This document shows positions 276 through 29,284 of a DNA stretch of 64,000 nucleotides, piece after piece; positions within the stretch are counted from its first letter, which is position 1, and each line of letters opens with the position of its first letter. This stretch comes from Gammaproteobacteria bacterium. Lineage in GTDB: Bacteria > Pseudomonadota > Gammaproteobacteria > Xanthomonadales > Wenzhouxiangellaceae. The notes beneath the pieces were generated by a model. The model did not search any database, had not been told where the DNA came from, and saw only the letters and a list, made by a program, of their open reading frames with translations. Location of the stretch: positions 1-64,000 of the forward strand of contig JAHJQV010000063.1 of the NCBI GenBank assembly GCA_018819105.1, given 5' to 3'. A program made the translations under genes and the position numbers.

Positions 276-1853
276 TTGAGCATTGTTCGCAGGTCAGGCC
301 AGGCAAGGCCGGGCTTCAAACGCCAGGCAGGCATAACAACGACGGTTTTTTCACTGGTGCTGAACTGGTGTGGTGTCACTGTGGCCATGGAATTTGCCGA
401 TGTCACCAGTGCGACCGGTATGCTTGCCGAGCACTTTACCAACAAGCCCAGCTGCGGTCAGGCGATGGCCGACTTCGATCGTGACGGTCGCGAGGACATC
501 CTGCTCACCGGGTATTTCTTCCCCAATCTGCTGTTTCTGCAATCGGCACCCGGGACATTCAGTGAATCACCATTGTCTGCACAGCTGAACCCGCCGGTGA
601 GCCGCTGCGGAGCGGCTGCGGCGGCTGATTACAACAACGATGGCTGGCCGGATCTGTACCTGGCCTGCAATGAAGACAATCACCTGTTCCGCAATGATCA
701 GGGCACAGGCTTTAGCGAAGTCACCGCTGAGCTGCAGGTCAATCATGGCGGCAATTCCGAAGCCGTGGCCTGGGCCGACCTCAATCAGGACGGCCAGCTT
801 GATCTTTTTGTCGGTGCCTATCCGTCCAGCAGTACGCCTGACTTGAACGATCCCGACAACCTCGATCAGTTGTGGCTGAGCCAACCCGACGGCAGCTATC
901 TGAACATCGGCCACCTGCTGGATGCCGCCACCCGTGCACGCACCGCGCTGGCTGCCCAGTTTTTCGACATCGACAACGACGGCGACCAGGATCTGTACGT
1001 GGTCAACGACAAACTGGATGGCAACAGCCTGTGGCGCAATGACGGCCCCGGCTGTGGCGGCTGGTGCCTGACCGATGTGGCGGGCAGCAACGGTGCCGAT
1101 CGACCGGTGTTTGGCATGGGCATCGCCGCTGGCGACATCGATCACGACGGCGATCTGGACCTGTACTTCTCCAGCATCGGCGAGCAGGTGCTGCTGCGCA
1201 ACGATCTGGATCAGGGTAGTCTGGCATTCACCGAGATCAGCACGGCCGCCGGTCTCAACTTTTATGCCGTCGGCTGGGCCACACATTTTGCCGACTTCAA
1301 CAACGACGCGAGACTGGACGCCTACCTGGCCACCGGCAACATTGATTATCCGTACAACACCGACCGTGTCTACCGCAATGACAGCACCGCAGACAGTCTG
1401 TGGTTTGCAGACGTCGCCGAGGCCAGCAATGCCAGCAATGCCGAGCGCACCCACGGCGCGGCCCAGTGGGACTATGATGGCGACGGTCGCCAGGATCTGG
1501 TGGTCTGCAACAACAATGTTGATTATCGCCTGTACCGCAATGTCAGCGTCGAGCCTGGCAACTGGATCGAACTGCGGCTTGATGGTGCCGCCAGCAACAT
1601 CAATCGCGATGCCATCGGCAGCCGCATTACCGTCAGCGACGGCCAGGGCCACCTGCAACAGCGTGAAGTGGCCAGTGGCCAGGCGCGTGGCGGCAACAGC
1701 AGCCTCATCCAGCATTTCGGTGTGGGCGATGCCAGCCAGGTCAGCGTTCGCATCCGCTGGCCTGACGGGCGCGAGGACAGCCATCAATTGAGCGCCAACT
1801 CACGCCACCGTCTGTTTTACGCTGAACTGCTGCAACGGGATGGGTTTGAATGA
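276..1853 (+). CDS. Exported FG-GAP/VCBS repeat protein with ASPIC/UnbV domain (copy 1)
   Basis: Extracellular or periplasmic beta-propeller protein of the CRTAC1/ASPIC-UnbV group; no enzymatic role is known and binding or adhesion is the usual guess. Seven calcium-binding loops of the DxNxDGxxDL type can be read (for example DYNNDGWPDLYL, DIDNDGDQDLYV, DYDGDGRQDLVV). They are followed from about residue 428 by an ASPIC/UnbV domain ending around IRWPDGRE. A hydrophobic stretch near residues 20-37 looks like an export signal. The start is uncertain: the frame opens with a TTG at 276 without a clear ribosome site, and the only nearby ATG (388) lies after the signal. The protein ends in LLQRDGFE, a tail shared with two other exported proteins here. 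Its stop overlaps the start of the next, paralogous gene by 4 bases, so the two are translationally coupled. Confidence 0.85.
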   Translation: MSIVRRSGQARPGFKRQAGITTTVFSLVLNWCGVTVAMEFADVTSATGMLAEHFTNKPSCGQAMADFDRDGREDILLTGYFFPNLLFLQSAPGTFSESPLSAQLNPPVSRCGAAAAADYNNDGWPDLYLACNEDNHLFRNDQGTGFSEVTAELQVNHGGNSEAVAWADLNQDGQLDLFVGAYPSSSTPDLNDPDNLDQLWLSQPDGSYLNIGHLLDAATRARTALAAQFFDIDNDGDQDLYVVNDKLDGNSLWRNDGPGCGGWCLTDVAGSNGADRPVFGMGIAAGDIDHDGDLDLYFSSIGEQVLLRNDLDQGSLAFTEISTAAGLNFYAVGWATHFADFNNDARLDAYLATGNIDYPYNTDRVYRNDSTADSLWFADVAEASNASNAERTHGAAQWDYDGDGRQDLVVCNNNVDYRLYRNVSVEPGNWIELRLDGAASNINRDAIGSRITVSDGQGHLQQREVASGQARGGNSSLIQHFGVGDASQVSVRIRWPDGREDSHQLSANSRHRLFYAELLQRDGFE

Positions 1854-3400
1854 ACTGTCCACAACGACTTGCCGGCATGGTGTGTCTGCTGTTGCTGACC
1901 ACCCGATTCGGCTGGGGCCAGCAGATCCAGTTTGTGGAACAGACCATAGACCCGCCGCTGCTGCACAGCGGCAATTACATGATCACCGGCCAGGGCTTTG
2001 CCGATCTCAACAACGATGACTGGCCGGACCTGGTGGTGACTTCATCCAATGGGCCGGATCACGTCTATTTGAATGTCGCCGGCAGCCTGCTTCCGGCACC
2101 AGGCTTTCAGCAGGCCATGGCAAGCACTGATCGCAGCGGCGGCATCGCCTTTGCCGATTATGACAACGATGGCGATACCGATCTGTTTGTCGCCTGCTAC
2201 GGCGAGGATCGACTGTATCGCAACGACGACGGTACGGGCTTTACCGAGATCGGTGCTGCTGCCGGTGTCAACTGGGCGGGACGTGGTGAATCTGCCGCCT
2301 GGGGCGATCTGAATGCAGACGGCTGGCCGGATCTTGCTGTGGCCGGTTTTCCGCTGCCGGACAGTGAGCAGCCGGATCCAGAGCACCCCATCCATCACAA
2401 CCGCCTGTACTTCAACAATGGCTTTGACAGCAACCGCAATGGCGGCTTCAGCGATGTCACCCACCTGCTGGGCGATCTCGCGCCGCTGCGACGACTCACT
2501 TTTGCCGTGACCATCATTGATTTCAACAACGATGGCCGTGCTGATCTGCTGTTCGCCAACGACAAGGAACAGGGCAATCTGCTCTATCGCAATGATGGCC
2601 CCGGCTGTGACGGCTGGTGCTTCACCGATGTGTCAACCGCCAGCGGCGCAGAGCGCCCGGTCGACGGCATGGGCATCAGCTGGGCCGATTATGACCACGA
2701 TGGCGATCTCGACCTGTTCATCTCCGGACATGGCGAGCAGGTCCTGCTGCAGAGCCAGGTGGCCCAGGGCATGGCGAATTTCATTGAAGTCTCCACCGCC
2801 GCAGGCATCAACTACAACGCGGTCGGCTGGGGGTCGGTGTTTCAGGATTTCGACAACGACGGCTGGGAAGATCTGTTCCTCGCCACCTTTGCCACCTTCG
2901 GTGCCAGTGATCGGGTGTTCGGCAATCTGGGTGATGGCAGTTTTGCCGATGTCAGCAGCGGCAGTGGCGCCAGCGATCCATTCCAGAGCATCGGCGCTGC
3001 CTGGGCCGATGTGAATCTGGACGGCGGCATCGATCTGCTGGTCGGCGATTACAACGACCGCTACCACCTGTACACGAATGCCACCGCCAGCCAGAACAAC
3101 TGGTTGCAGCTGCGTCTGCTTGGCAATCCGACACTGGGCATGGATGCGCTGGGCAGCCGCATCCTGCTGCAGCGCAGCGACGGCGAGCAGTTGCTACGGG
3201 TCATCCACTCCGGCGACAGCATCGGCTCCGGCAGCAGTCTGATTGCACATTTCGGCCTCGGTGCTTATCAGGCTGAGTCCATCGAAATCATCTGGCCGAA
3301 TGGCCATCGTCAGGTCATCGACTCCCCGGCAGCGAATCGCCTGCATGCGCTCAGCTACCAGCTTCCCGAGGTCTTTCAGCGCGACAGTTTCGAGAATTAA
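1850..3400 (+). CDS. Exported FG-GAP/VCBS repeat protein with ASPIC/UnbV domain (copy 2)
   Basis: Paralogue of the preceding gene with the same architecture: signal peptide (residues 1-23, cleavage likely before QQIQF), about seven VCBS loops (such as [48 protein letters not shown]), then an ASPIC/UnbV domain from about residue 415 with [10 protein letters not shown]. Both copies share a paired-cysteine loop of the form NDGPGCxGWCxTDV before the fifth blade. It starts inside the stop of copy 1 (ATGA overlap), so the pair probably arose by tandem duplication and is co-expressed. The C-terminus reads VFQRDSFEN, a slightly degenerate form of the DGFE tail of copy 1. Exact ligand and function are unknown. 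Confidence 0.87.
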
Positions 3401-3434: not shown

Positions 3435-4814
<1,380 letters not shown>

Positions 4815-4979: not shown

Positions 4980-5858
4980 TTAATCGGGTGTCTGCTGGTT
5001 CAGACTCCAGTCGTAATCCAGAAAGCGCAAACTGTAGTCTTCCTGCAGCAGATATTCGCGGCGTGGATCCGATGGCAACAGCTGGCTGGCAATAAAGCAC
5101 ACCAGTGAATCCCGCTTGGCCGAAAGCCTGGCAGCGATCTGCAGCGGCTCACCCACACAGTCAAAGTCCTCATCGAACCAGTCGAAGATCGCCGACACGC
5201 TGACCCGGTCGCGACCACGCTCGATGCTCAGTCCCTTGTTCGGGTTGTTCAGAAATCGCAGCGTCTGTTCCTGCAGTTGTCGCGCCAGGCGCGCGCCAGT
5301 GTAGGCTTCCCCGCGCAGATCCGGGCAGCTCAGCGAGGCGCAGACGATGGCAAAATGGATGCGTGGCTCGGCAAACTGCTGCCGCAGAATTTTGTGCTCG
5401 ATGTCATCCAGTGTGCGAAGCTTACCTGCTACCGTCCAGCGCAGCTCATCCCAGGCCCCATCGATGTTGGTGATGCTCTGCTCGCCACCGAACAGGCCAC
5501 CGAAGGCACCGCCCGCAGGAATCGGGTAATGATCGATGATCAGTTGCAAGGTCAGCGCGTTGTAGGCGTTGATCCAGAAGGCGATCTGCACCGCCTCGTC
5601 CTGCGCCGCCAACACGTCAGCATCCACTGCAGCCAGTTGCTGCAGATAATCACCCAGCATATCCGGCGCCGCCTGCAACGCAGCATAATCCACCAGTCCG
5701 GCAGGCGATACGTGTTGCACCAGCACAGCATTCAAGGCGCTGTGCTGGTGGTCAAAGTCTGCATCGACAGCCGCAATCTGGGCAGTGCTGTGGCTGCTTG
5801 CCAGGCCCAGCAACAGCGCTGTCCCCAGCAGCAGTAAGCCACGGAAATACTCATTCAT
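4980..5858 (-). CDS. Exported DUF547 domain protein
   Basis: A 292-residue protein with an N-terminal signal peptide (hydrophobic residues 7-20, likely cut near STAQ-IA) followed by a DUF547 domain. Family hallmarks visible are FWINAYNALTLQ (about residues 93-104), IHFAIVCASLSCP with its two cysteines, and the conserved SxIFDWFxEDF segment. The biochemical role of DUF547 is not established. It is the last gene of a five-gene minus-strand operon and overlaps the end of the upstream transferase gene by 8 bases. DUF547 proteins are often found beside the rSAM/selenodomain-associated transferases, so a role in the same pathway is a reasonable inference. Confidence 0.88.
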   Translation of the reverse strand: MNEYFRGLLLLGTALLLGLASSHSTAQIAAVDADFDHQHSALNAVLVQHVSPAGLVDYAALQAAPDMLGDYLQQLAAVDADVLAAQDEAVQIAFWINAYNALTLQLIIDHYPIPAGGAFGGLFGGEQSITNIDGAWDELRWTVAGKLRTLDDIEHKILRQQFAEPRIHFAIVCASLSCPDLRGEAYTGARLARQLQEQTLRFLNNPNKGLSIERGRDRVSVSAIFDWFDEDFDCVGEPLQIAARLSAKRDSLVCFIASQLLPSDPRREYLLQEDYSLRFLDYDWSLNQQTPD

Positions 5859-6567
5859 TCGCTTGTTCCTTGCATGCTCGGCCAGAAGTGTACCAGCGAT
5901 GCAGTGTGGCTGCCGAAATCCCCAGCAGGTGGGCTGTGGCCAGCATGCGGTTGCTCAACGTTCTTCTGAGCCAGCCGTCGCTGTCCCAGCGGCGGGTGGC
6001 CACCAGCACGCCATCACCGGCACAGCGCAAACCACCGCTGGCGCGCAACGCCTGCACCAGCGCAACCTCTTCAAACAGCGGCTGCTCGGCAAAGCCGCCA
6101 GCCTGGTGAAATGCCGTCCGCTGCACAAACAGCGCCTGATCGCCGTACACCATCATGCTGAGGCAAACGCGCAAGGCAATGGCGGCTTCCAGCCAGCGGT
6201 GCCAGTAGCGATGTGGCGGCTGGAAGCGAAAGCGAAAATAACCGGCGCGGGCAGACCCGCTTGCCACCTGCTGCAGATTTGGCAGCGCCTGCGGCAGCAG
6301 CACGCTGTCGGCATGCACAAACCACAACCAGTTGCCGCTGGCCTGCCTGGCTGCCGTGTTCAGTTGCCGGCCGCGACCGCGTTCACTGACCAGATAACGC
6401 GCGCGATAATGCCGACAAAGCTGTTCGTTGTGCAAGTTGTGTTCGCCATCGACAACGATCACCTCAGCCAGCGACCACGGCAAGACGCTGAGCTGCTGCA
6501 GCAGCGCCGCCAGCGCCACGCTGTCGCGCCAGACCGGGATGATCAGGCTGACGGCAATGTCCTGCAA
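5851..6567 (-). CDS. rSAM/selenodomain-associated transferase 2 (family 2 glycosyltransferase)
   Basis: GT-A fold family 2 glycosyltransferase matching the TIGR04283 pattern. The N-terminus SLIIPVWRD is the nucleotide-sugar binding strand, EVIVVDGE and the WFVHADSVL segment hold the acidic residues expected for metal/nucleotide binding, and GRGRQLN lies between them, as is usual in this subfamily. The length of 238 residues is normal. TIGR04283 members were defined by co-occurrence with TIGR04282 and a radical SAM protein (TIGR04167/ArsS) in arsenosugar-type clusters; the TIGR04282 partner is in this operon, but no radical SAM gene is in the window. It starts 3 bases after the flavoprotein gene and overlaps the DUF547 gene. 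Confidence 0.88.
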   Translation of the reverse strand: MQDIAVSLIIPVWRDSVALAALLQQLSVLPWSLAEVIVVDGEHNLHNEQLCRHYRARYLVSERGRGRQLNTAARQASGNWLWFVHADSVLLPQALPNLQQVASGSARAGYFRFRFQPPHRYWHRWLEAAIALRVCLSMMVYGDQALFVQRTAFHQAGGFAEQPLFEEVALVQALRASGGLRCAGDGVLVATRRWDSDGWLRRTLSNRMLATAHLLGISAATLHRWYTSGRACKEQANE

Positions 6568-6570
6568 TGC

Positions 6571-8037
6571 TCAGCGCCGCCAGGCCAGCCAGCGTCGCAT
6601 CCATTTGGCCACGCCGGGGGTCAGCTTCTGACGCCGGACCTGATCGGACAGCCGGCGCAGATACTCGCCACGGGTGGGGTATGGCAGCATGGCCTTGTCG
6701 GCGGCAGCAAGCCCCAGACCGTTGGCCTGCATGATCAGCAACGGTGCCAGCAGATCACCGGCATGCGCACCGACGATGGTGGCACCCAGTATCTTGTCGT
6801 CGCCGGGTTTCGTCAGTACCTCGACATAACCGCGGGTATCGCCCTCGGCTCGGGCGCGATCCATGTCCTGCCAGTCCACCCGCCAGCTTTTCACCGCCAG
6901 CCCCTGCTGCTCGGCCTCGGCACTGGTCAGCCCCACGTGAGCCACTTCCGGATCGGTGTAGGTGCAGCGCGGCACCATGGCCGCGGAACGTTTGGCGGTG
7001 GGCAGAAACAGCGCATTGGCAATGACGATGCGTGCCTGGGCATCGGCAAAATGGGTCAGCTTGAGTGCCGAACACACATCGCCGGCGGCAAAGATGTTGC
7101 GCTGGCTGGTGCGCAGCTTGTCGTCCACGTCAATGCCGCGCCGATCGTGTTTGACGCCGACTGCATCAAGCTGCAGCCCGTCCAGATTGGGTTGCCGGCC
7201 GGCAGCCACCAGCAACTGGTCGGCCTGATACTGCTCACCGCTCTTGCAATACACCGTGAACACACCATCGGCATGGCTGACCCGCTCGATCTGCACCTCG
7301 CATGATACCGCCACGCCCAGTTCATCCATGGCCTGCTGCAGCACCGCGCTGGCCTCTGGCTCCTCCCCGGCCAGAATGCGCGGCGCAATCTCCAGCAGCC
7401 GCACCTTGCTGCCGAGCCGGGCAAACGCCTGCGACAGCTCACATCCGATCGCGCCGGCTCCGATGATGAGCAGTTCGCGCGGCTGTTCGACCAGATCAAA
7501 CACCTGCTCGTTGGTCAGTGCCGGCACCTCGTCCAGCCCGGGAATCGGTGGCATGGCGGCGCGTGAACCGGTGGTGATCACGGTCTTGCTGGCGCGCAGT
7601 GTCACGTCGCCGACCTGCACCGTGCCGTCGGCATTGAACGCGGCCTGACCGAGAAACACATCCACGCCCTGCTCGCTGTAGCGCTGCACCGAATCGTGCT
7701 CGGCAATGCCAGCGCGCACTTCACGCAGCCAGGCCATGCTGCGCTGGAAAGCATCCGGCTGTCCCTGAAACCGGCGCGCAGCCGCCAGCACCGCCTTGGA
7801 GGGCACACAGCCGACATTCAGGCAGTCGCCGCCCATGGCGTGACGTTCGATCAGCGCCACTTTGGCACCCAGCCCGGCAGCCGCGATTGAGGTGATCAAG
7901 CCGGCCGGCCCGGCCCCGATCACGATCAGATTGTAATTGTCCTGCGGTGTCGGGTTCTGATGGTCATCCGGCGCCACCAGCGCACGCCAGTGGGCATCAA
8001 ATCCGGCTCCGGCGTAGTCTTTTGGCATGTCATTCAT
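6571..8037 (-). CDS. MerA-like FAD-dependent pyridine nucleotide-disulfide oxidoreductase
   Basis: A 488-residue flavoprotein disulfide reductase. It shows an N-terminal FAD motif (VIGAGPAGLITSIAAAGLG), the redox-active disulfide in GGDCLNVGCVPSKA, an NAD(P)H-binding motif (IIGAGAIGCELSQAF), a second FAD segment (IFAAGDVC) and a C-terminal dimerisation domain (YTDPEVAHVGLT). It resembles mercuric reductase but lacks the N-terminal metal-binding domain and the C-terminal vicinal cysteine pair that bind Hg(II), so true mercuric reductase activity is unlikely. The segment usually carrying the catalytic His-Glu pair reads LPYPTRGE. The start at 8037 is preferred because it gives an 8-base overlap with the upstream TVP38 gene; an ATG at 8073 would add 12 poorly conserved residues. 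TVP38 plus this flavoprotein is a frequent gene pair. Confidence 0.9.
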   Translation of the reverse strand: MNDMPKDYAGAGFDAHWRALVAPDDHQNPTPQDNYNLIVIGAGPAGLITSIAAAGLGAKVALIERHAMGGDCLNVGCVPSKAVLAAARRFQGQPDAFQRSMAWLREVRAGIAEHDSVQRYSEQGVDVFLGQAAFNADGTVQVGDVTLRASKTVITTGSRAAMPPIPGLDEVPALTNEQVFDLVEQPRELLIIGAGAIGCELSQAFARLGSKVRLLEIAPRILAGEEPEASAVLQQAMDELGVAVSCEVQIERVSHADGVFTVYCKSGEQYQADQLLVAAGRQPNLDGLQLDAVGVKHDRRGIDVDDKLRTSQRNIFAAGDVCSALKLTHFADAQARIVIANALFLPTAKRSAAMVPRCTYTDPEVAHVGLTSAEAEQQGLAVKSWRVDWQDMDRARAEGDTRGYVEVLTKPGDDKILGATIVGAHAGDLLAPLLIMQANGLGLAAADKAMLPYPTRGEYLRRLSDQVRRQKLTPGVAKWMRRWLAWRR

Positions 8038-8758
8038 GGTTTTGCTGTGGGGCTGTTTGCTGCTCTGGTTCATGCAGAATGTCCTGTTTGAGAATCCTGG
8101 TGGCCATGCGGGTGACCACCACCGTTACCACCACGGTGGCAATCAGGCCGACCACAAAAAAGATCCGCCCGGCGCTGCCGGCCTCCACCTCGCCACTGAA
8201 AATGGCCGCGAGGCTGCGTGCCACCGAGCCAAAATACACGTACATGATGGTACCGGGAATCATGCCCAGCCACGACGCCAGCGTATAGTCTCGCAAGCTC
8301 ACCGCCGTCACGCTGTAGGCATAATTCTGCAGGCCAAACGGAAACACCGGCGACAGGCGAGTCAACAGCACCACCAGAAACCCGCGTTCGCCAATGGCCT
8401 TGTCCAGCGCCTGGAACCTGGGCATCTGCGCAACCAGTCGCTGCGCATGACGGCGGGCAAAGCCACGACCGATGACAAACGCCACCACCGCCGCCAGCAC
8501 GCTGGCCAGCGACACCATGATCACCCCTTGCAGCAGACCAAACAACGCACCGGCTGCCAGTGTCAGCAGACTGGCCGGTACCAGCAGCACACCGACAACG
8601 ATGTACAGCGCAATGAAGGCAAACCAGGACCAGCCGGGATGCGTCTCGATCCAGCTTATGGCAAGCTGCAGCCAGTTCGCCACCGGCAACTGCCAGATCG
8701 CCAGCAGCAACAGACAGACCGCTGCCAGCAGCAGCCAGAGTTTTCGGGATTTGAACAT
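8030..8758 (-). CDS. TVP38/TMEM64 family inner-membrane protein
   Basis: A 242-residue DedA-like (SNARE-associated, PF09335) membrane protein with about five or six hydrophobic segments: near residues 7-24, 41-57, 62-84, and a long C-terminal pair. The family block FPFGLQNYAYSVTAVSLRDY followed by GMIPGTIMYVYFG is intact. Such proteins are thought to act in lipid or small-molecule movement across the membrane, but substrates are not settled. The start at 8758 (MFKSRKLWLLL) is chosen because it directly precedes the first membrane helix; further upstream the frame runs antisense-like through the neighbouring gene. It lies 13 bases after the upstream transferase gene and overlaps the flavoprotein gene by 8 bases. 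Confidence 0.88.
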   Translation of the reverse strand: MFKSRKLWLLLAAVCLLLLAIWQLPVANWLQLAISWIETHPGWSWFAFIALYIVVGVLLVPASLLTLAAGALFGLLQGVIMVSLASVLAAVVAFVIGRGFARRHAQRLVAQMPRFQALDKAIGERGFLVVLLTRLSPVFPFGLQNYAYSVTAVSLRDYTLASWLGMIPGTIMYVYFGSVARSLAAIFSGEVEAGSAGRIFFVVGLIATVVVTVVVTRMATRILKQDILHEPEQQTAPQQNHE

Positions 8759-8771
8759 GCCAAGCTCCTGG

Positions 8772-9467
8772 TCAGGCGGTGGATTCCATCGACACGGCGG
8801 CATTCGCCAACACCGCAGCAATGACCTTGCGCAATTGTCGGCGCGCCGGTCTGGGGTCATGCTGCAGTTCAGCCTGCACCGGCTGCAGATCTTCCAGCAC
8901 GTCGATGTCCATGCCGGCGGGCAATAGCGAGACACTGTGACCGGCGACCAGACAGCTTGCTTGCAAGGCCACTCCCAGTCCGGACTGCGACCAGGGCAGA
9001 TCACTCAAGCCGGGCCAGGCCGGCCCGGTCGCCATCAGTGTGACACCGCCATCCAGCGCCGGTTGCAGTACCACATCGTTGTGCTGCAGCGCAGTCGCCG
9101 CCTCCCGCAGGGTCTGCGCCGACAGCAGTGGCGCATCGGTGCCGATGAAGATGCGTTGTGCACAGCCCTGCCGCAACAGGCACTCATCAATATGCTGCAA
9201 ACGCTGCCCCAGATTGCCAGCGGTCTGCACCATGATCTCAGCGGTCGCATGCAGCGACTGCGCCCAGTCACGATCGTCCGCACTGGCCGGTGCAATCACC
9301 ACCTGACCCGGCCAGTCACGTACATCCTCCAGCGCACAGTCCAGCAAAGCCTCGGCGATAGACTGTGCCGGCGCAACACCAATGCCCGCAGCCAGGCGCT
9401 GCTTGCCAGTGCCGGCATGCGGCCGCTTGCAGAACACGATCACGGTGGGGTGATTCAGGGCAGACAT
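8772..9467 (-). CDS. rSAM/selenodomain-associated transferase 1 (TIGR04282, DUF2064)
   Basis: A 231-residue nucleotidyl/glycosyltransferase-like protein. The signature VIVFCKRPHAGTGKQRLA near the N-terminus and the IFIGTDAPLLSAQTL / VVLQPALDGGVTLMAT segments fit TIGR04282/DUF2064, which has a nucleotide-sugar type fold. One departure: most members carry K-T-R-L in the first motif, whereas here it is K-Q-R-L. It is the first gene of the minus-strand operon that also holds TIGR04283. The ATG at 9467 is preferred over an in-frame GTG at 9494 because the family motif starts within ten residues of it and an AGG lies at a suitable distance. A TATAAT hexamer lies about 70 bases upstream. Confidence 0.88.
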   Translation of the reverse strand: MSALNHPTVIVFCKRPHAGTGKQRLAAGIGVAPAQSIAEALLDCALEDVRDWPGQVVIAPASADDRDWAQSLHATAEIMVQTAGNLGQRLQHIDECLLRQGCAQRIFIGTDAPLLSAQTLREAATALQHNDVVLQPALDGGVTLMATGPAWPGLSDLPWSQSGLGVALQASCLVAGHSVSLLPAGMDIDVLEDLQPVQAELQHDPRPARRQLRKVIAAVLANAAVSMESTA

Positions 9468-9533
9468 GATGCCTGGATTAGATGGCTCTTGCACGACATG
9501 GGTTGAGGCAACATTGCTGGCAGATCAGCCAGC

Positions 9534-9539
9534 ATTATA
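9534..9539 (-). promoter_or_regulatory. Candidate -10 box for the transferase operon
   Basis: On the minus strand the sequence reads TATAAT, a perfect -10 hexamer, 66 bases before the ATG at 9467. No good -35 hexamer lies 16-18 bases upstream, so the promoter may be activator-dependent, or the match may be chance. It sits in the 223-base gap between msrA and the operon. Confidence 0.4.
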
Positions 9540-9690
9540 GGCCAGCTTGAATAGCACCGTGCTGGTGCCACCGACCATTGTCCCATCCGGCTGTTCGCTC
9601 GGAAAACTCCGCCACGTTAGCGCTGCCCAGACATCGATCAGCCTGACTTTAACTTGACCGCCCCCGCTGCAGAAACAAATTACTGCCCGT

Positions 9691-10449
9691 TTATTCCTTG
9701 CCCCAAAGCTGGCGCAGACGGGCATCACGGCCACAGCCGGAGCGATACATCTTGTAGCGCAGCGGGTTTTTGCGGTAGTAGTCCTGATGGTAATCCTCGG
9801 CCGGGTAGAAGGCCTGCAGCGGTTCGATGGCGGTGACGATCGGCGCGGGCAGATCGGTGGTGGCGCTGAGACGGGCCAGCGAGGCCTCGGCCTGCTGCTT
9901 CTGCTGGTCATCCGCATAGAAAATGGCGGTGCGGTACTGGTCGCCGACATCGCAGAACTGGCGGTCTCGGGTGGTCGGGTCGATGTTTTTCCAGAACACA
10001 TCCAGCAATTCGGCATAGCTGATGCGGGCCGGGTCGTACACCACCTTGACCACTTCGGCGTGGCCGGTGCCGCCTGCCACCACGTCCTGGTAGCTGGGGT
10101 TTTCGGTGTGGCCACCGGCATAGCCGGAGATCGTTTCGAGCACACCGTCCAGCTTGTCGTAGGGCGGTTCCATGCACCAGAAACAGCCGCCGGCAAAGAC
10201 GGCATGGGCGACACCGCCCTGATCGTTGGCCCGCTCGGCGGTCTGACTGTTGTCGCCCTCGCTGCTGTTGGCAGAAGCATCGGTGGATTGTTCGCTGATT
10301 GGGTTCATGGGTTCCTCTTGCAGGCTGCTGGCATGGAGTTCTCCGCCATCATTGGCACCGAGCTGATCGCCTCCGAGCCACCATAACAGCAACAGCAGCA
10401 GCAATAAAACGGTGTAGACCAATGTGTAGCGCAATGGGGATGATTTCAT
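9691..10449 (-). CDS. msrA: Membrane-anchored peptide methionine (S)-S-oxide reductase
   Basis: Reduces methionine-S-sulfoxide in damaged proteins. The catalytic motif GGCFWCMEPPYD is present at about residues 89-100, followed by the conserved GYAGGHTENPSYQDVVAGGTGHAEVV region and the QYRTAIFY and HQDYYRKNP blocks; this is a complete catalytic domain. The N-terminus is unusual in carrying a hydrophobic anchor (roughly residues 8-26, leucine-rich) and a linker of some 50 polar residues before the domain. This places the enzyme at the outer face of the inner membrane, or in the periplasm if cleaved. It is divergent from an exported msrB 251 bases away, which suggests a shared envelope-repair role. 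The resolving cysteine could be the C-terminal one in YRSGCGRD. Confidence 0.95.
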   Translation of the reverse strand: MKSSPLRYTLVYTVLLLLLLLLWWLGGDQLGANDGGELHASSLQEEPMNPISEQSTDASANSSEGDNSQTAERANDQGGVAHAVFAGGCFWCMEPPYDKLDGVLETISGYAGGHTENPSYQDVVAGGTGHAEVVKVVYDPARISYAELLDVFWKNIDPTTRDRQFCDVGDQYRTAIFYADDQQKQQAEASLARLSATTDLPAPIVTAIEPLQAFYPAEDYHQDYYRKNPLRYKMYRSGCGRDARLRQLWGKE

Positions 10450-10700
10450 GATCTTGGCGCTCTCTAGACAGACGATAAAAAAACTGAATCACATGTCAGC
10501 TGGCAACGCCATGCAGCCTATCAATGTTGTTATCGTTTATGGCTGCGAGGCGTTGTCTATCTGCGATGCATACTTCCGCGTATCGACAACCTGGGTTTCC
10601 TGATGGTTCCTGCTGTTGGCTGACATCTGACAATGAACCACGTTCGTACAATGGCATCAGACAGATGAGACGCCAACCCAAGCACAGAGGGACACTGAAG

Positions 10701-11318
10701 ATGAACAAACTGCGCAGAAGACTGCTCCAGACCAGCGCCGGGCTGGGATTGCTGGCCGGCTCGGGTATACTGTTGCGGGCCCAGGATCGGGGTCAGGAGA
10801 ACATGAGCACCGAAGTCAACCAGCATGGTGGAGATCCAGGCATGTCACAACAACCCCGCAGCGACCAGGACAGCGACTGGCGCGAGTTTGCACCGGCTGA
10901 TGCCGAATTCCCCGCCGCCGACGACAAGCTGGATCTGGACGACGCACAATGGCGCGAACGCCTGCATGGCGATGCCTACAGGGTGTTGCGCAAGGAAGGC
11001 ACCGAACGCGCCACCACCAGTCCGCTGCTGCATGAACACCGGCGCGGTCTGTTTGTCTGCGCCGGCTGCGATCTGCCGCTGTTCACCTCGGCGATGAAGT
11101 TTGACAGCGGCACCGGCTGGCCCAGCTTCACCACCACGATTGCCGGCCACATTGACACCAAGCGCGACTTCAAACTGTTCCTGCCGCGCACGGAGTACCA
11201 TTGCATCCGCTGCGGCGGTCATCAGGGCCATGTGTTTGACGATGGCCCGCCGCCGACCGGCCAGCGCTGGTGCAACAATGGCGTTGCGCTGAAGTTTTTG
11301 CCGGCTGCAGGCGCATAA
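10701..11318 (+). CDS. msrB: Tat-exported peptide methionine (R)-S-oxide reductase
   Basis: Reduces methionine-R-sulfoxide. The 205-residue product has zinc-binding CxxC pairs (FVCAGCDLPLF and YHCIRCGGHQGHVF), the SGTGWPSF substrate loop, and the catalytic cysteine in QRWCNNGVAL, where most family members have RYCxN. The N-terminus MNKLRRRLLQTSAGLGLLAG looks like a twin-arginine signal (RRRLLQ followed by a hydrophobic stretch), so export by Tat is predicted. The ATG at 10701 is preceded by AGAGG at a suitable distance. A TACAAT hexamer at 10647-10652 is a possible -10 box. It is divergent from membrane-anchored msrA; together they would repair both sulfoxide stereoisomers in the envelope. 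A REP-like inverted pair follows the gene. Confidence 0.95.
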   Translation: MNKLRRRLLQTSAGLGLLAGSGILLRAQDRGQENMSTEVNQHGGDPGMSQQPRSDQDSDWREFAPADAEFPAADDKLDLDDAQWRERLHGDAYRVLRKEGTERATTSPLLHEHRRGLFVCAGCDLPLFTSAMKFDSGTGWPSFTTTIAGHIDTKRDFKLFLPRTEYHCIRCGGHQGHVFDDGPPPTGQRWCNNGVALKFLPAAGA

Positions 11319-11348
11319 GACTCTCGTCTTTCGTATTTCCCGGTTTCA

Positions 11349-11427
11349 TGCCGGATGCGCTGCGCTTATCCGGCCTACCGTGAGCTGCCTTTGCTTGTAG
11401 GCCGGATAAGCATCGCGCATCCGGCAA
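11349..11427. repeat. REP-like inverted pair (GCCGGATGCGC...TTATCCGGC family)
   Basis: Two copies of a ~30-base palindromic unit face each other (11349-11378 and 11398-11427), the second differing from the reverse complement of the first by a few central bases. Each unit is itself a GCCGGATgcgc/gcTTATCCGGC type hairpin flanked by CCTAC, very similar to enterobacterial REP/BIME sequences. Other copies in this window are at 22192-22217 and within 30391-30812. Its position just after msrB allows a role in mRNA 3' end protection or termination. Confidence 0.7.
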
Positions 11428-11498
11428 GCCATGGTTTGCAGTATATCTACTGAGGTCACGCTGCTAGACTAACCTCTGACCAACCGCTGGGCTTACCC

Positions 11499-13424
11499 AT
11501 GTCAGGCACATCCCAATTCGCCCTGCTGAAGACGCGGCGTTTCCTGCCGTTTTTCATCACCCAGTCCGGTGGTGCGCTCAACGACAACATCTTCAAGAAT
11601 GCGCTGGCGGTGCTGATTGCCTTTCAGGGCAGCCAACTGGCCGGGATGAACAGCGATCAGCTGATCAACCTCAGTGCCGGTTTGTTCATTCTGCCGTTCT
11701 TTCTGTTTTCGGCCATGGTGGGCCAGTTCGCCGACAAGTACGAGCGCTCGCGGCAGATCCGCTTTATCAAGCTGCTGGAAGTGCTGATCATGCTGCTGGC
11801 GGCACTGGGCTTCTGGCTGCAGAGCATGTCGATACTGCTGGCGGTGCTGTTTCTGCTCGGCCTGCAGAGCACACTGTTTTCGCCGATCAAATACAGCCTG
11901 CTGCCGCAGGTGCTGAAAGTTGAGGAGCTGGTGGCCGGCAACGGCCTGGTCGAAGCCGGCACCTTTGTCGCCATTCTGCTGGGCACCGCGCTGGGTGCCT
12001 ATTTCATTGCCATCCCGCAAACCGGCACGCAGATCATCACCGTGCTGTGTCTGGCGGTGGCACTCACCGGCTACCTCTCCAGCCGTTATATTCCCACCCT
12101 GCCGGCCTGCGACAGCGGGCTGACCATCAACTGGAATCCGCTCAGCGAGAGCTGGCGCATTCTGCGCAATCTGGCCAGCCAGCGCACCCTGCTCAACAGC
12201 GTGCTGGGGCTGTCCTGGTTCTGGTTTTTCGGTGCCATCGTGCTGGTGCAGATTCCCAGCTACACCATCAACGTGCTGGGTGGCGCGGCCGAGATCACCG
12301 CCGGACTGCTGCTCACCTTCATCATCGGCATCAGCAGCGGCTCGCTGTTGTGTCACAAGCTGTCCGGCGACGAGATCGAGATCGGCCTGGTGCCGCTGGG
12401 CTCCATCGGCATGACCCTGTTTGCTGTCGATCTGTACTTCGCCAGCCCGTCCATGCCGCTGGGCGATGGTGTGCTGCTGGGACAGTTTCTCAGCACACCG
12501 GCGGTGTGGCGCATTCTGTTCGACATGGTCATGCTGGGCATATTCGGCGGCTTTTTTACCGTGCCGCTGTTTGCCGTGATCCAGCATCGCAGCCCGCCCA
12601 ACCGGCGTGCGCGCATCATGGCCGCCAACAGCATCCTTAATGCCGCCTTCATGGTGCTGGCCTCGGTCATGGCCATCTGGCTGCTGGGTGTGGGCTACAG
12701 CATTCCCGATCTGTTTCTGCTCACCGGCGTCTTCAATGCGGTGATCGCCGTCTACATTTACCTGCTGGTGCCGGAGTTTTTTCTGCGTTTCCTCGCCTGG
12801 CTGGGCACGCACACGTTTTATCGCCTGCGCGTGGATGGCCACGAGCACATCCCGACCACCGGTCCGGCACTGCTGATCTGCAATCACATCAGCTACATGG
12901 ATGCACCGATTCTGGCCGGCGCCACGCGACGTCCGCTGCGCTTTGTCATGCACCATCGCATCTGGCGGCAGCCACTGCTGAACTGGCTGTTCCGCAGCGC
13001 TGGTGCCATTCCCATTGCCAGTGGTGAGCGCGATCCGGCCGTGCTGGAGCAGGCCCATGCCAGCATCGACCGCTATCTGGCCGCTGGCGAACTGGTGATG
13101 ATCTTCCCCGAAGGCCAACTCACCCGCGATGGCAGCATGCAGCCGTTCAAACGCGGGGTGGAACAGATTCTCAGCCGCAACCCGGTGCCGGTGATTCCGG
13201 CCGCACTGCATGGCTTGTGGGGCAGCCGTTTCAGCATGTCGCGCCAGCAGACCCGGCTCAACCGCCAGCGACAGGGGCTTCTGCGCGAGGTACGCTTGCG
13301 CTTCGGTGCACCGCTGCCAGCCGCAGGCCAGAGCGCAGAGTCGCTGCAGCAACGCGTCAGCGAGCTGTATGCACAGCTGGATATGCTGGCCAGTGCGGAA
13401 CAGGATGCGGCAAGCGATTCGTGA
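11499..13424 (+). CDS. MFS lysophospholipid transporter fused to 1-acylglycerol-3-phosphate acyltransferase
   Basis: Two-domain membrane protein of 641 residues. Residues about 1-430 form a 12-helix major facilitator domain of the LplT type (N-terminal FFITQSGGALNDNIFKNAL, then the loop GQFADKYERSRQIRF). Residues about 440-630 form a PlsC acyltransferase domain with the catalytic HxxxxD in CNHISYMDAP, the substrate motif FPEGQLTRDG, and VPVIPAALHG. The likely job is flipping lysophospholipids inward and re-acylating them. Known longer relatives carry a third acyl-ACP synthetase (Aas) domain, which is missing here. The frame opens just after a noncoding gap. Its stop overlaps the start of the ABC ATPase gene by one base (TGATG), so the three genes 11499-15732 form one operon. 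Confidence 0.92.
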   Translation: MSGTSQFALLKTRRFLPFFITQSGGALNDNIFKNALAVLIAFQGSQLAGMNSDQLINLSAGLFILPFFLFSAMVGQFADKYERSRQIRFIKLLEVLIMLLAALGFWLQSMSILLAVLFLLGLQSTLFSPIKYSLLPQVLKVEELVAGNGLVEAGTFVAILLGTALGAYFIAIPQTGTQIITVLCLAVALTGYLSSRYIPTLPACDSGLTINWNPLSESWRILRNLASQRTLLNSVLGLSWFWFFGAIVLVQIPSYTINVLGGAAEITAGLLLTFIIGISSGSLLCHKLSGDEIEIGLVPLGSIGMTLFAVDLYFASPSMPLGDGVLLGQFLSTPAVWRILFDMVMLGIFGGFFTVPLFAVIQHRSPPNRRARIMAANSILNAAFMVLASVMAIWLLGVGYSIPDLFLLTGVFNAVIAVYIYLLVPEFFLRFLAWLGTHTFYRLRVDGHEHIPTTGPALLICNHISYMDAPILAGATRRPLRFVMHHRIWRQPLLNWLFRSAGAIPIASGERDPAVLEQAHASIDRYLAAGELVMIFPEGQLTRDGSMQPFKRGVEQILSRNPVPVIPAALHGLWGSRFSMSRQQTRLNRQRQGLLREVRLRFGAPLPAAGQSAESLQQRVSELYAQLDMLASAEQDAASDS

Positions 13425-14176
13425 TGATTTCACTGCAGCAGGTCAGCAAAAGCTATCAGCGTCAATTCGACGCACTGGCCCCGCTGTCACTGGAGATCGC
13501 CGCCGGCGAGCTGCTGGTGCTGTTGGGCTCGTCGGGTTCCGGCAAGAGCACACTGCTGAAACTGATCAACCGTCTGCTGGAGCCGGACAGCGGTCAGATC
13601 CTGCTGCAGGGCAAGCCGCTGCAGGCGCACGATCCGGTGGCGCTGCGCCGCAGCATCGGCTATGTGTTTCAGGGCATCGGTCTGTTGCCGCATCTGAACA
13701 TCATCGACAACGTGACCACCGTGCCACGTCTGCGTGGTGATGATCCGGCACAGGCACTGCAACAGGCCAGAGCACTGCTGCACAGCGTCAACCTTGATCC
13801 CGATCAGTATGCCGACCGCCTGCCGCAGGCGTTGTCCGGCGGCCAGCAGCAACGCGTGGGCGTGGCCCGGGCACTGGCCACCGGTGCCAGCCTGCTGCTC
13901 ATGGATGAGCCGTTCGGCGCGCTCGATGCGATCACCCGCGACGAGTTGCAAAGCATGCTGCTGGATCTGCATCGGCGTCTGCACAAGACCATCGTGTTTG
14001 TCACCCACGACATTTTCGAGGCGGTGCGTCTGGCCGATCGCATCGTCGTCATGCATGCCGGGCGCATCGAACAGATCGGCACGGCCAGTGAGCTGATCAA
14101 TCAGCCGGCCAGCGAGTTTGTCGAGCTGCTGTTCAGCAAACCGCTGCAGGCGCTCAAACACCTGCAGCAGACATGA
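13424..14176 (+). CDS. Osmoprotectant/glycine betaine-type ABC transporter ATPase
   Basis: A 250-residue ABC ATPase of the OpuCA/ProV class. Walker A is GSSGSGKST, the signature is LSGGQQQRVGVARAL, Walker B is LLLMDEPFGALD, and FVTHDIFEA carries the switch histidine. The C-terminal CBS pair found in full-length OpuCA/ProV is absent, so ionic-strength sensing through CBS domains is not expected. The start at 13424 (MISLQQVSKSY) is chosen; a GTG one codon earlier would also work. It is translationally coupled to the acyltransferase fusion upstream (1-base overlap) and to the permease-binding protein gene downstream (4-base ATGA overlap). Substrate could be betaine, choline, carnitine or ergothioneine-like; it cannot be fixed from sequence alone. 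Confidence 0.93.
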   Translation: MISLQQVSKSYQRQFDALAPLSLEIAAGELLVLLGSSGSGKSTLLKLINRLLEPDSGQILLQGKPLQAHDPVALRRSIGYVFQGIGLLPHLNIIDNVTTVPRLRGDDPAQALQQARALLHSVNLDPDQYADRLPQALSGGQQQRVGVARALATGASLLLMDEPFGALDAITRDELQSMLLDLHRRLHKTIVFVTHDIFEAVRLADRIVVMHAGRIEQIGTASELINQPASEFVELLFSKPLQALKHLQQT

Positions 14177-15732
14177 ACGGCTTGCTGTCATTCATGGCCG
14201 GGCGCTGGCCCGAACTGGGGCAGAAACTGCTGCAGCATGCCCTGCTCACAGGCATTTCCACCACAGTGGCCATTGTCATCGGTCTGGGACTGGGCATTGT
14301 GCTGAGTCGCCGGCGCGCCTGGCAGGGGCCGGTCATGGCCATGGTCAATGCCGTGCAGACCATCCCCAGCCTGGCCATGCTGGCGTTTCTGCTGCCGCTG
14401 TTCGGCATCGGCATGCTGCCGGCGCTGATTGCGCTAACGCTGTATGCGCTGCTGCCGATCATGCGCAACACCCTGACCGGCATCGACGGTCTGCCAGCAG
14501 ACATCATCGAGGCCTGTGCGGCGCTGGGGTTCACCGATCGCCAGCGCCTGTGGCAGGTGGAGTTGCCGCTGGCGTTGCCGACCATCATGGCCGGCATTCG
14601 CACGGCGGCGGTGATCAGCGTCGGTGTGGCCACGCTGGCTGCCTTCATCGGTGCTGGCGGGCTGGGCGATTTCATCGTGCGCGGCCTGGCCGTCAACAAC
14701 AATGCACTGGTGCTGCTGGGTGCGGTGCCGGCGGCGCTGCTGGCATTGCTGCTGGATCGTATGTTGCACGCGCTGGAACATCATCTGCGCCAACGGCGAG
14801 CCGCTGCCGCCGCCATGCCGGTGCGGTTGCCATCGACAGGCAGGCTGCTCATTGCCAGCGTTGCTGTCGGATCGCTGCTGCTGGGCAGCCTGGTGTTGTG
14901 GCACAGCCAGCGCGATGACGGCGACAGCATTCGCGTGGCAAGCAAGAATTACACCGAGCAGTATGTGCTGGCAGAAATCATGGCGCAGCTGCTGGAGGCA
15001 CACACCGACCTGAAGGTCGAGCTCAAGCTGAACCTGGGCAGCGTCAATGTCATTCACAACGCACTGCGCAACGACGAGGTGGATCTGTACGCCGAATACA
15101 CCGGCACCGCCTGGCGGGTGATCCTGGAACAACAACAGACGCTGGATTCAGCCAGCACTTTCGCGCAGGTGCAACAGGCCTATGCGCAGCGGTTTCAACT
15201 GCACTGGCTGGCACCGTTCGGCTACGAGAACACCTATGCCATCCTGGTTACCGAGGAACTGGCGGCGCAGCACAAGCTGACCACCATCAGCGATCTGGCC
15301 GCCATCGCGCCGCAGCTGGTGATGGGTTTCGCCGCCGAGTTTCATGAGCGCAGTGACGGTTATCCGGCGCTGCAACAGGCCTACGGACTGCGCTTTGCCG
15401 ACACCGCCGAGATGGACCTGGGACTGCTTTACCAGGCCTTGCGTGAAGGTCGCATAGATGTCGCTGCCGGCAACTCCACCGATGGCCGCATCCCCACCTT
15501 CAGACTGCGCATGCTGCGCGATGATCTGGGCTTTTTCCCGCCCTATGACGCCGCCCCGGTGATCCGCGCCGAACTGCTGCGACAACATCCGCAGCTTGCC
15601 GAAGTGCTGCAGCGCCTGGCTGGCCGTATCGACACCACAACCATGCAGGCGATGAATCGGGCCGTGGATCAACAGCAGCAATCGGCCGCCGCCGTGGCGA
15701 GCGAATTTCTGCGCCGGCAGGGACTGCTGTAG
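14173..15732 (+). CDS. ABC transporter permease fused to substrate-binding domain (OpuC/Opu type)
   Basis: A 519-residue fusion. Residues about 1-205 are a ProW-like permease with five to six helices and the EAA-type loop IIEACAALGFTDRQRLWQVELPLALPTIMAG. A further helix (about 218-241) then leads to an extracytoplasmic OpuAC-like binding domain (about 250-519) beginning IRVASKNYTEQYVLAEIM and including EVDLYAEYTGTAW and AAGNSTDGRI. Such permease-binding fusions are known in osmoprotectant and ergothioneine importers. With the ATPase upstream this makes a complete importer from two genes. The motif GSVNVIHNALRNDEVDLYAEYTG fits the quaternary-amine binder family; ligand remains inferred. No terminator is visible after the stop. 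Confidence 0.92.
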   Translation: MNGLLSFMAGRWPELGQKLLQHALLTGISTTVAIVIGLGLGIVLSRRRAWQGPVMAMVNAVQTIPSLAMLAFLLPLFGIGMLPALIALTLYALLPIMRNTLTGIDGLPADIIEACAALGFTDRQRLWQVELPLALPTIMAGIRTAAVISVGVATLAAFIGAGGLGDFIVRGLAVNNNALVLLGAVPAALLALLLDRMLHALEHHLRQRRAAAAAMPVRLPSTGRLLIASVAVGSLLLGSLVLWHSQRDDGDSIRVASKNYTEQYVLAEIMAQLLEAHTDLKVELKLNLGSVNVIHNALRNDEVDLYAEYTGTAWRVILEQQQTLDSASTFAQVQQAYAQRFQLHWLAPFGYENTYAILVTEELAAQHKLTTISDLAAIAPQLVMGFAAEFHERSDGYPALQQAYGLRFADTAEMDLGLLYQALREGRIDVAAGNSTDGRIPTFRLRMLRDDLGFFPPYDAAPVIRAELLRQHPQLAEVLQRLAGRIDTTTMQAMNRAVDQQQQSAAAVASEFLRRQGLL

Positions 15733-25236: not shown

Positions 25237-25457
25237 GCCTTGCCACCGATGCCAAAAAGCCAGCACCCAGTAAAGCACATCCAGCCCGGATTGCAATGAG
25301 ACTGCCCGCGCGGCAGTGAGTTTCTGTCGAAAACGATCACCCTGGCGAATCGCAAAGCTGTGCCCTGAATTGACGTCGCTGGACGACAACAAGGTAAGGT
25401 TCCCGAGAGACGAAAATATGCTATCTTATGATTCATGTTGACAATCAGAAGGGAACA

Positions 25458-27821: not shown

Positions 27822-27973
27822 TTGTTACTATAACTTCCCAGCATGATAGTGACTCATTCGACTATGAGGAACTTAATATTGGCACGTCTCGAGCTGTAAA
27901 ACATGCTGGAATATGGTTTACTGGTGATCCAGATACGGTAAAATACGAGTCATACAAAGTTGGCGAACCAATA

Positions 27974-29284
27974 ATGTATGAAGATGGATTATTATGGCAG
28001 ATTGAAGAGGTGCCTGCCTATAGAAATGAAAATATGGCTGCTGATCCACTTTATGAGATACCCAGATTGATCCTGGTAGGACGCGATCAGACATGGCTCA
28101 GTATAGGCTCTGATTATTATTCAAGCATCCAATCATTGCTTGACTACGATGAAGACATATTGAGCCTTGTCAATCAAATCGCCCAGAAGATTCTCAGCGA
28201 TGAGCAAAGAATTAGAAATATTTCTGAATATGTGCAACAGAGCATCAGTTATACAGCCATAGAGTTTGGTGCCCGAGGCTATACGCCGAAATCACCCAGT
28301 TCCACTCTCCAAGATCTCTATGGCGACTGCAAGGATCATGCTGTGATTCTGAGTGCAATGCTGAAAGCTGCCGGGTTAAGTAGTCGCCTTGTGCTGGTAA
28401 ACCTTGATCAACCTGTATTACCGGACCTGCCAAGTTTAGACCAATTCGACCATATGATTGTAGAGGCCAAAACTACTGATAAACTGTACTATCTTGATGC
28501 CACTGACAAGGATTTGCCCCTGCTGAAGTATCCGCCCAGATATCTGGCTGGCAACATGGGCTTAGCCCTGGGCTCGAATCCAGAGCAGGTGTTCATTCCG
28601 CCTTATCCAGCTGACAGCAGAAGAATCTCCAGTGTGAGAGTCGTTGAACTGGATAAGAATGGGTACATGAGAGTAAATGAAATTCTGACTGCTGACGGTT
28701 ATGCCGCAGCTGCCTATCGTGGTGATCTTTCAAACCGTAGCAGCCTAAATCGCCGAGACAGAATTCAAGAGTATCTGAACAGCTATGGTGATCACCTTAA
28801 GCTTAAAGACCTGGTTATCATGAACATTGAAAATAATCAATTACCATTGATCATAGATCTCACTTATGAGACCACAGCAATACCGCTAAATCTCCCCGGA
28901 TTCATACCAGATGTGCCGAGTATATTTGAGTTGCAATGGATTCCACCCACATGGTACGAGAGCAGGCAGACTGATTTTAAAGTCGAGTATCCGTTACAAT
29001 TCACAGCTGATATCACTCTGATTGACAACAGCTCAGCGAATACATTTACCCATACCCTCGAGCCTGTCTCAATGCAAACAAGGTTTGGCAATTGGGAGTT
29101 GTCTGCGACACCAGATTCGGGTCAACTTGCTATCCGCTTTCACTACAATGAGCATGCCGCCACTTACAGCGCCGAGCACTACGAAGAATACGAGACATTC
29201 AGCAGCACTGCAGTCAGAGTACTGACCAACGCTGGCCGTTTATCACAACCATCCTCCAACGGACAGATCATCACTTCACGTTAA
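27974..29284 (+). CDS. DUF3857/transglutaminase-like protein, C-terminal part of a frameshifted gene
   Basis: The first ATG of this frame is at 27974, but coding sense extends back to about 27782 (reading APGHRIQLIVTITSQ), directly joining the DUF3857 domain of the preceding frame. The region contains a transglutaminase-like core with a plausible catalytic triad: cysteine in YGDCKDHAVILSAMLKAAG, histidine in QFDHMIVEA and aspartate in YYLDATDKDL. Such DUF3857-transglutaminase proteins are exported and of unknown substrate. As an isolated 436-residue gene it would lack a signal peptide and the first half of DUF3857, so I regard it as the C-terminal part of one gene. It converges on the glutaredoxin fusion 38 bases away. 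AT-rich like its N-terminal half. Confidence 0.7.
   Translation: MYEDGLLWQIEEVPAYRNENMAADPLYEIPRLILVGRDQTWLSIGSDYYSSIQSLLDYDEDILSLVNQIAQKILSDEQRIRNISEYVQQSISYTAIEFGARGYTPKSPSSTLQDLYGDCKDHAVILSAMLKAAGLSSRLVLVNLDQPVLPDLPSLDQFDHMIVEAKTTDKLYYLDATDKDLPLLKYPPRYLAGNMGLALGSNPEQVFIPPYPADSRRISSVRVVELDKNGYMRVNEILTADGYAAAAYRGDLSNRSSLNRRDRIQEYLNSYGDHLKLKDLVIMNIENNQLPLIIDLTYETTAIPLNLPGFIPDVPSIFELQWIPPTWYESRQTDFKVEYPLQFTADITLIDNSSANTFTHTLEPVSMQTRFGNWELSATPDSGQLAIRFHYNEHAATYSAEHYEEYETFSSTAVRVLTNAGRLSQPSSNGQIITSR

Follow-up and report, generated by a model that had tools for sequence, protein, structure and literature searches.

What would a bacterium make with the two transferase families that usually accompany the radical S-adenosylmethionine (SAM) enzyme ArsS when that enzyme is nowhere to be seen? 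The question is raised by the first 64,000 nucleotides of contig JAHJQV010000063.1 (the window) from a gammaproteobacterium of the Wenzhouxiangellaceae (assembly GCA_018819105.1), in which a single compact minus-strand operon, spanning window positions 9494-4980, encodes a DUF2064/TIGR04282-like protein, a TVP38 protein, a MerA-like flavoprotein, a GT2 glycosyltransferase of family TIGR04283, and a DUF547 protein. A sequence-only reading of this DNA, which ended the operon at 9467 and thus 27 bp short, had proposed that either ArsS and its companion ArsM are encoded elsewhere or the operon makes a different membrane-associated glycoconjugate. We consider it somewhat probable that the operon is the sugar-activation and sugar-transfer half of an arsenosugar-like pathway of a second type, in which a different radical SAM family, named rSAM-B here, stands in place of ArsS and the half that forms the carbon-arsenic (C-As) bond is encoded elsewhere; the reactions, the arsenic substrate, and the presence of rSAM-B and ArsM in this organism are what we infer in that statement.

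The assignment draws on two trees and on the gene order of a sister genome. The trees hold 91 GT2 and 79 DUF2064 sequences, with 7 loci and the genes missed by a simple gene caller (for example, the DUF2064 gene of locus L142) left out. The window GT2 groups with those of genomes G020 and G179 (support 0.999), and the window DUF2064 protein groups with those of G020, G087, and G179 (support 0.998). The motif KQRLA, which reads GKQRLA in the window, occurs in 4 of the 79 DUF2064 sequences, exactly those of the window and these three genomes. All three carry rSAM-B together with an ArsM that we call YYG-type after its N-terminal motif (profile from alignment A4), and the window GT2 is distant from the GT2s of ArsS-bearing genomes of the same family. 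The sister genome G020, also of this family, has the same operon as the window, except that GT2 and DUF547 are separated by a small methyltransferase-like gene; upstream lie MsrA, MsrB, an MFS-acyltransferase protein, and an ABC transporter, as in the window. Judged from sequence, the window module most probably belongs to the rSAM-B variety, and ArsS is probably not its partner. The proposal that the missing genes lie elsewhere is therefore likely right in direction and probably wrong in the partner that it expected, since GT2 and DUF2064 fall with genomes that have rSAM-B and ArsM.

The rSAM-B family is unnamed, and its profile (A5) was built from four loci (L132, L142, L143, and L153) that hold the pair of TIGR04283 and TIGR04282, or its DUF2064 member, and no ArsS, with rSAM-B nearby and a YYG-type ArsM within ∼1.5 kb. 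At locus L248, rSAM-B adjoins a YYG-type ArsM. Members score 43-60 bits on ArsS (cut-off 300) and 84-122 bits on the Rv1681 family (NF049973), which is the nearest named family, but with a cut-off of 380 that rSAM-B falls far under. We searched a 199-genome sample of the phylum with A5 and with the ArsS, TIGR04283, and TIGR04282 profiles, scoring the pair as present at E-values of 1e-30 for TIGR04283 and 1e-12 for TIGR04282. The pair is present in 89 genomes, 69 of which carry ArsS, as the association asserted by the sequence-only reading would have it, while 14 carry rSAM-B, 0 carry both, and 6 carry neither. Conversely, one half of the pair is missing in 3 of the 72 genomes with ArsS and in 1 of the 15 with rSAM-B. 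When the four seed genomes are excluded, the pair occurs in 11 of 11 rSAM-B genomes and ArsS in 0 (hypergeometric 8e-5 for the pair and 5e-10 for the exclusion), figures that overstate the surprise because related genomes are not independent, the 15 rSAM-B genomes coming from 7 families. The same picture emerges from a further set, 52 genomes selected on whether they have the pair and ArsS and overlapping with the first: rSAM-B is in 19 of the 28 genomes lacking ArsS and in 0 of the 24 with it.

The two radical SAM families also share a similar terminal run of cysteines. A pattern describing it, composed after both families had been seen, fits 18/19 ArsS and 16/20 rSAM-B sequences and 0/6 other radical SAM proteins; among other gene calls it fits 1 of 2063, a piece of ArsS in L161. 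This likeness in sequence suggests that the two families may carry out related chemistry. The arrangement of rSAM-B genes varies. In the non-seed loci that we read, rSAM-B does not sit beside GT2-DUF2064, and in two (L249 and L251) it sits beside the TVP38-flavoprotein; three named loci (L224, L226, and L227) hold an MTAP-like phosphorylase (MTAP), GT2, DUF2064, and rSAM-B together. We note that in G087 a cluster at 6615-14240 of locus L153 contains MTAP, rSAM-B, ArsM, DUF2064, and DUF547, and that TIGR04283 gives way there to another GT2 and the MerA-like protein to a distinct Fe-S flavoprotein.

The genome that contains the window is a draft of 3.14 Mb in 68 contigs (98.7% complete, the window lying in contig 58). 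Over the whole draft, the ArsS model TIGR04167 reaches at best 23 bits against a cut-off of 300, which argues against membership in the ArsS pathway; as a control, the ArsS model at strict E-values matches 1 of 14 named genomes, Synechococcus elongatus. The ArsM model NF008823 reaches at best 76 bits against a cut-off of 263, NF038099 not having been searched. Neither ArsS nor ArsM thus passes its cut-off in the window, in line with the sequence-only reading, or in the draft. The ArsM proteins that accompany the module in relatives score 181-194 bits on NF008823 and are themselves under its cut-off, and an additional search was therefore made with the YYG-type profile. The only notable radical SAM match to rSAM-B in the draft, C29:14291-14737 at 43 bits, was rejected as a member; the protein reads, we presume, like HpnH.

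In G020, rSAM-B and ArsM adjoin each other beside two genes that we take to be lpxL and waaA. In the window genome, 0.4 kb separates waaA from the end of contig C7, and the sequence that follows waaA is a dispersed repeat (L283; ∼120-165 bp matched at 79-100% identity, with copies in L286, L288, L281, and L267). Contig C10, which shares 123 bp at its end, contains nothing that matched lpxL, ArsM, or rSAM-B of the sister. The two genes could lie in a contig gap or be truly absent, and the negative search tells little because a contig break at this place is about as likely either way. Against the gap, waaA of the window genome does not have lpxL as its immediate neighbor, whereas in G020 it does, so that synteny is at least interrupted.

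Several observations weigh against the rSAM-B reading. No rSAM-B was found in the draft, the best match (43 bits) being to another radical SAM protein, and the YYG-type profile finds no ArsM in this genome at an E-value of 1e-20. The 6 of 89 pair-positive genomes with neither radical enzyme are the window genome, G096, G129, G165, G170, and G244, and two of these, G096 and G129, are single-contig assemblies. An hhalign comparison of rSAM-B with ArsS aligns the radical SAM core only (probability 98.6). In the 52-genome set, in which other ArsM families were not searched, a YYG-type ArsM occurs in 9 of 19 rSAM-B and 9 of 24 ArsS genomes; the link to arsenic is therefore not a strict one for this type of ArsM.

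If the rSAM-B reading holds, ArsM would methylate arsenite, and rSAM-B would join a SAM-derived sugar unit to the arsenic. An MTAP-type nucleoside phosphorylase would then free a 5-modified ribose-1-phosphate, which the DUF2064 protein would activate with a nucleotide and which GT2 would move onto an acceptor, perhaps a lipid. At the membrane, TVP38 and the flavoprotein, with its MerA-like Tyr site, may keep arsenic in, or return it to, the trivalent state, and the DUF547 protein would be exported. We infer the arsenic link from the ArsM and ArsS companions of the module and from the adenosylation of arsenic reported for ArsS (cited in PMC12159101). Among the closest known systems is the arsenosugar biosynthesis by SsArsM and SsArsS of Synechocystis (cited in PMC8552651). 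Two other bacterial routes to C-As bonds offer a comparison. The arsinothricin genes arsQML combine a radical SAM enzyme, ArsL, which transfers a 3-amino-3-carboxypropyl group, with ArsM (PMC8552651), and the bisenarsan bsn cluster is reported to form the bond without a SAM-dependent enzyme (PMC12159101); as far as the accessible portions of these two papers go, neither includes a GT2/DUF2064 module. In open-access PMC, we found neither a second radical SAM enzyme for the arsenosugar pathway nor a link of DUF547 or TVP38 to arsenosugars.

A broader version of this proposal, which we offer tentatively and hold to be somewhat doubtful, is that rSAM-B is an undescribed class of C-As bond-forming enzyme that replaces ArsS in several proteobacterial families and feeds a DUF2064-GT2-TVP38/flavoprotein-DUF547 assembly mounting an arsenic sugar on a membrane lipid, with an exchangeable input: ArsS, rSAM-B, an Rv1681-like enzyme in actinomycetes, or an APH kinase. 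A true member of the Rv1681 family (497 bits) lies ∼3 kb from DUF2064 in L167, and no paper on Rv1681 with radical SAM was found in open-access PMC. At six loci (L202, L214, L217, L218, and L219 from actinomycetes, and L221), GT2 neighbors a radical SAM protein of a third type, and five of these loci also have DUF2064 and a weak MTAP-like phosphorylase; the L218 protein of this type carries a fused metallophosphatase domain, and its score against the Rv1681 family is 273 bits.

The idea of a kinase input comes from genomes that have the pair and neither radical enzyme. Adjacent or close to the pair in G096, G129, and G165 lies a common gene, for which two of the three give a Pfam APH match. 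An ABC importer is also common to G129 and G165, and in G129 its binding protein is a match to NF008633. Some sugar kinases, such as methylthioribose kinase, have an APH fold. Taken with the MTAP of other varieties, the APH-type gene suggests a common logic in which a ribose-1-phosphate analogue is supplied, activated by DUF2064, and transferred by GT2. Because such variants exist without either radical enzyme, the TIGR04282/TIGR04283 pair alone is no proof of arsenic chemistry; the NCBI family name "arsenosugar biosynthesis glycosyltransferases" has been taken as evidence of arsenosugar sequestration (PMC13077682).

These same three genomes argue for an arsenic-free glycoconjugate, in which a sugar-1-phosphate, provided by a kinase or some other enzyme, is activated by DUF2064 and placed by GT2 on a lipid handled by TVP38, with ArsS and rSAM-B as optional feeders elsewhere. 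They keep alive the suggestion of a different membrane glycoconjugate, and so do weak APH matches beside the pair in two Firmicutes loci and the fatty-acid-hydroxylase-like protein found in 13 of 66 linked loci. For the window we regard this as unlikely, since its DUF2064 clusters with genomes that carry rSAM-B and ArsM, and no APH homologue is present in the window or in the fetched pieces of this genome, which cover part of it. That the operon is an idle or decaying remnant of a lineage that lost the C-As-forming half is, in our view, improbable. Such a loss would account for the lack of ArsS, rSAM-B, and YYG-type ArsM in the draft, and G029 and G034 are similar cases, retaining the module although near relatives carry a radical enzyme. 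On the other side, the five reading frames are uninterrupted and closely spaced, motifs including the redox Cys pair are preserved, and the place where the sister has rSAM-B and ArsM falls at a contig end in the window genome. A classical split pathway, with ArsS and ArsM missed or unassembled in this genome, is very improbable despite the prevalence of ArsS (found in 8 of the 11 genomes from this family, besides the 69 pair-positive genomes of the phylum sample), given the 23-bit TIGR04167 result, a sister genome that also lacks ArsS and has rSAM-B, and a window GT2 far from those of ArsS-bearing family members.

Returning to the rSAM-B reading, the rest of the operon is no peculiarity of this genome. 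The sequence-only reading had looked to a neighborhood comparison across the order, and there the same module recurs; ArsS occurs in 21 of the 81 genomes sampled, and the sister G020 has rSAM-B instead. Several ArsS loci have the same TVP38 and flavoprotein, usually fused, near GT2, DUF2064, and ArsS, some also with DUF547 and ArsM. A Pseudomonadaceae contig (L204) brings together, within ∼9 kb, ArsS, ArsM, and homologues of each of the five operon genes; L207 has the same order, its contig ending inside GT2 before DUF2064. The module of the ArsM-ArsS pathway in relatives has the parts seen in the window, whose draft genome differs in giving no ArsS match over the cut-off and whose nearest GT2/DUF2064 relatives use rSAM-B instead. 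Because the defining ArsS was looked for and not found, the operon ought not to be classed as an ArsS pathway. Across 66 linked GT2+DUF2064 loci (8 others having been dropped as duplicates, second copies, or pieces of the window's own genome), we counted the flavoprotein in 30, TVP38 in 26, ArsS in 18, an MTAP-like phosphorylase in 12, DUF547 in 10, and YYG-type ArsM, rSAM-B, and an APH-like kinase in 5, 5, and 4, respectively, where a match counts wherever it falls in the fetched DNA, contig ends truncate some of the stretches, and the MTAP-like matches in actinomycetes reach only 58-70 bits. By these frequencies, the pair is regularly accompanied by the flavoprotein, TVP38, and DUF547. The fatty-acid-hydroxylase-like protein (PF04116, with a weak OlsE match) often follows DUF2064 directly (L055, L064, L052, L054, L225, L228, L232, and others), hinting at a lipid acceptor.

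The flavoprotein scores 576.7 bits on NF004991 (cut-off 620) and 350.6 bits on the MerA model TIGR02053 (cut-off 454.45), and among solved chains it best matches 5x1y, a mercuric reductase (E 3.7e-66). The His of lipoamide dehydrogenase 1ebd (HPTLGE) is replaced by Tyr in the window protein, as in MerA 5x1y (PYLT). Tyr occupies this site in 37 of 37 readable pathway flavoproteins, from a table of 38 rows that includes two duplicates (L192 and L222), one sequence unreadable at the site (L228), and one row with YPS rather than YPT. MerA has a C-terminal vicinal Cys pair, and the window protein, whose C-terminus reads GVAKWMRRWLAWRR, does not. It therefore shares the redox Cys pair and the Tyr site with MerA and departs from it at the C-terminus and in falling under the TIGR02053 cut-off. 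By these residues, a reductase for metalloid species may fit better than a plain disulfide reductase. TVP38 and the flavoprotein are fused in most relatives and are separate, adjoining genes in the window. Fusion to a pyridine nucleotide-disulfide oxidoreductase is the most common domain fusion of the COG0398 DedA subfamily (PMC10127716); these are fusions of the same type, and the portion of that paper available to us draws no link to arsenic ("arsen" occurs 0 times).

The profile matches of the other products bear out the parts list of the sequence-only reading, with one reservation. GT2 passes the TIGR04283 cut-off (200.6 bits against 182), but the DUF2064 protein matches TIGR04282 along the whole profile with 121.9 bits, below the cut-off of 134. 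The same protein scores 70.2 bits on PF09837, above the gathering score, and its closest solved chain is 3cgx, a putative nucleotide-diphospho-sugar transferase. TVP38 scores 93.4 bits on PF09335 (gathering score 33.9) and DUF547 95.1 bits on PF04784. A sequence search of solved chains gave no relative of the DUF547 protein (best E 0.55), and its predicted structure (pLDDT 84.2) gave no Foldseek match at E <0.001 (best 2.0) and VIA-align Z-scores of ≤4.8, matches too weak for a fold to be assigned. All five co-directional reading frames are open, with gaps of ≤13 bp or short overlaps between them and no promoter space in between (Table 1). A promoter scan performed at chance level (1 found, 1.1 expected), terminator-like sites numbered 7 against 3.9 expected, and tRNA and Rfam searches of the window gave no match.

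Table 1. Genes of the operon, in order of transcription
Feature	Window positions	Strand	Basis
DUF2064/TIGR04282-like protein, CofC-related nucleotidyltransferase fold, first gene	8772..9494	-	profile matches
TVP38/VTT-domain membrane protein	8030..8758	-	PF09335
MerA-like flavoprotein disulfide oxidoreductase; redox Cys pair intact, Tyr replacing catalytic His	6571..8073	-	profiles and alignments
GT2 glycosyltransferase, TIGR04283; start codon uncertain (listed as TTG)	5851..6567	-	TIGR04283
DUF547 protein; N-terminal hydrophobic stretch (signal peptide by eye), CASxSCP motif	4980..5858	-	PF04784

Upstream of the operon and on the same strand, msrA (9691-10449) opens a set that extends over 9691-15732 and encodes MsrA, MsrB, an MFS-acyltransferase fusion, an ABC ATPase, and a permease fused to an OpuAC glycine-betaine binding domain; the MsrA-MsrB-MFS-acyltransferase-ABC set also flanks the operon in the sister locus L045. 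On the plus strand, 444-3397 holds two tandem FG-GAP repeat proteins with a C-terminal ASPIC/UnbV domain, followed by an L-serine ammonia-lyase (3435-4814). Farther along the plus strand, the G+C content falls to 0.41 over two long frames (25428-29284) that look TPR/transglutaminase-like by eye and were possibly acquired recently.

These findings add the TVP38-flavoprotein and DUF547 as likely members of the pathway. Of broadest interest is that a second radical SAM family exists and that, in the sample, it and ArsS exclude each other: 20 of the 89 pair-bearing genomes lack ArsS, and 14 of those 20 carry rSAM-B, never together with ArsS, which makes rSAM-B a testable candidate for a second bacterial organoarsenical route.

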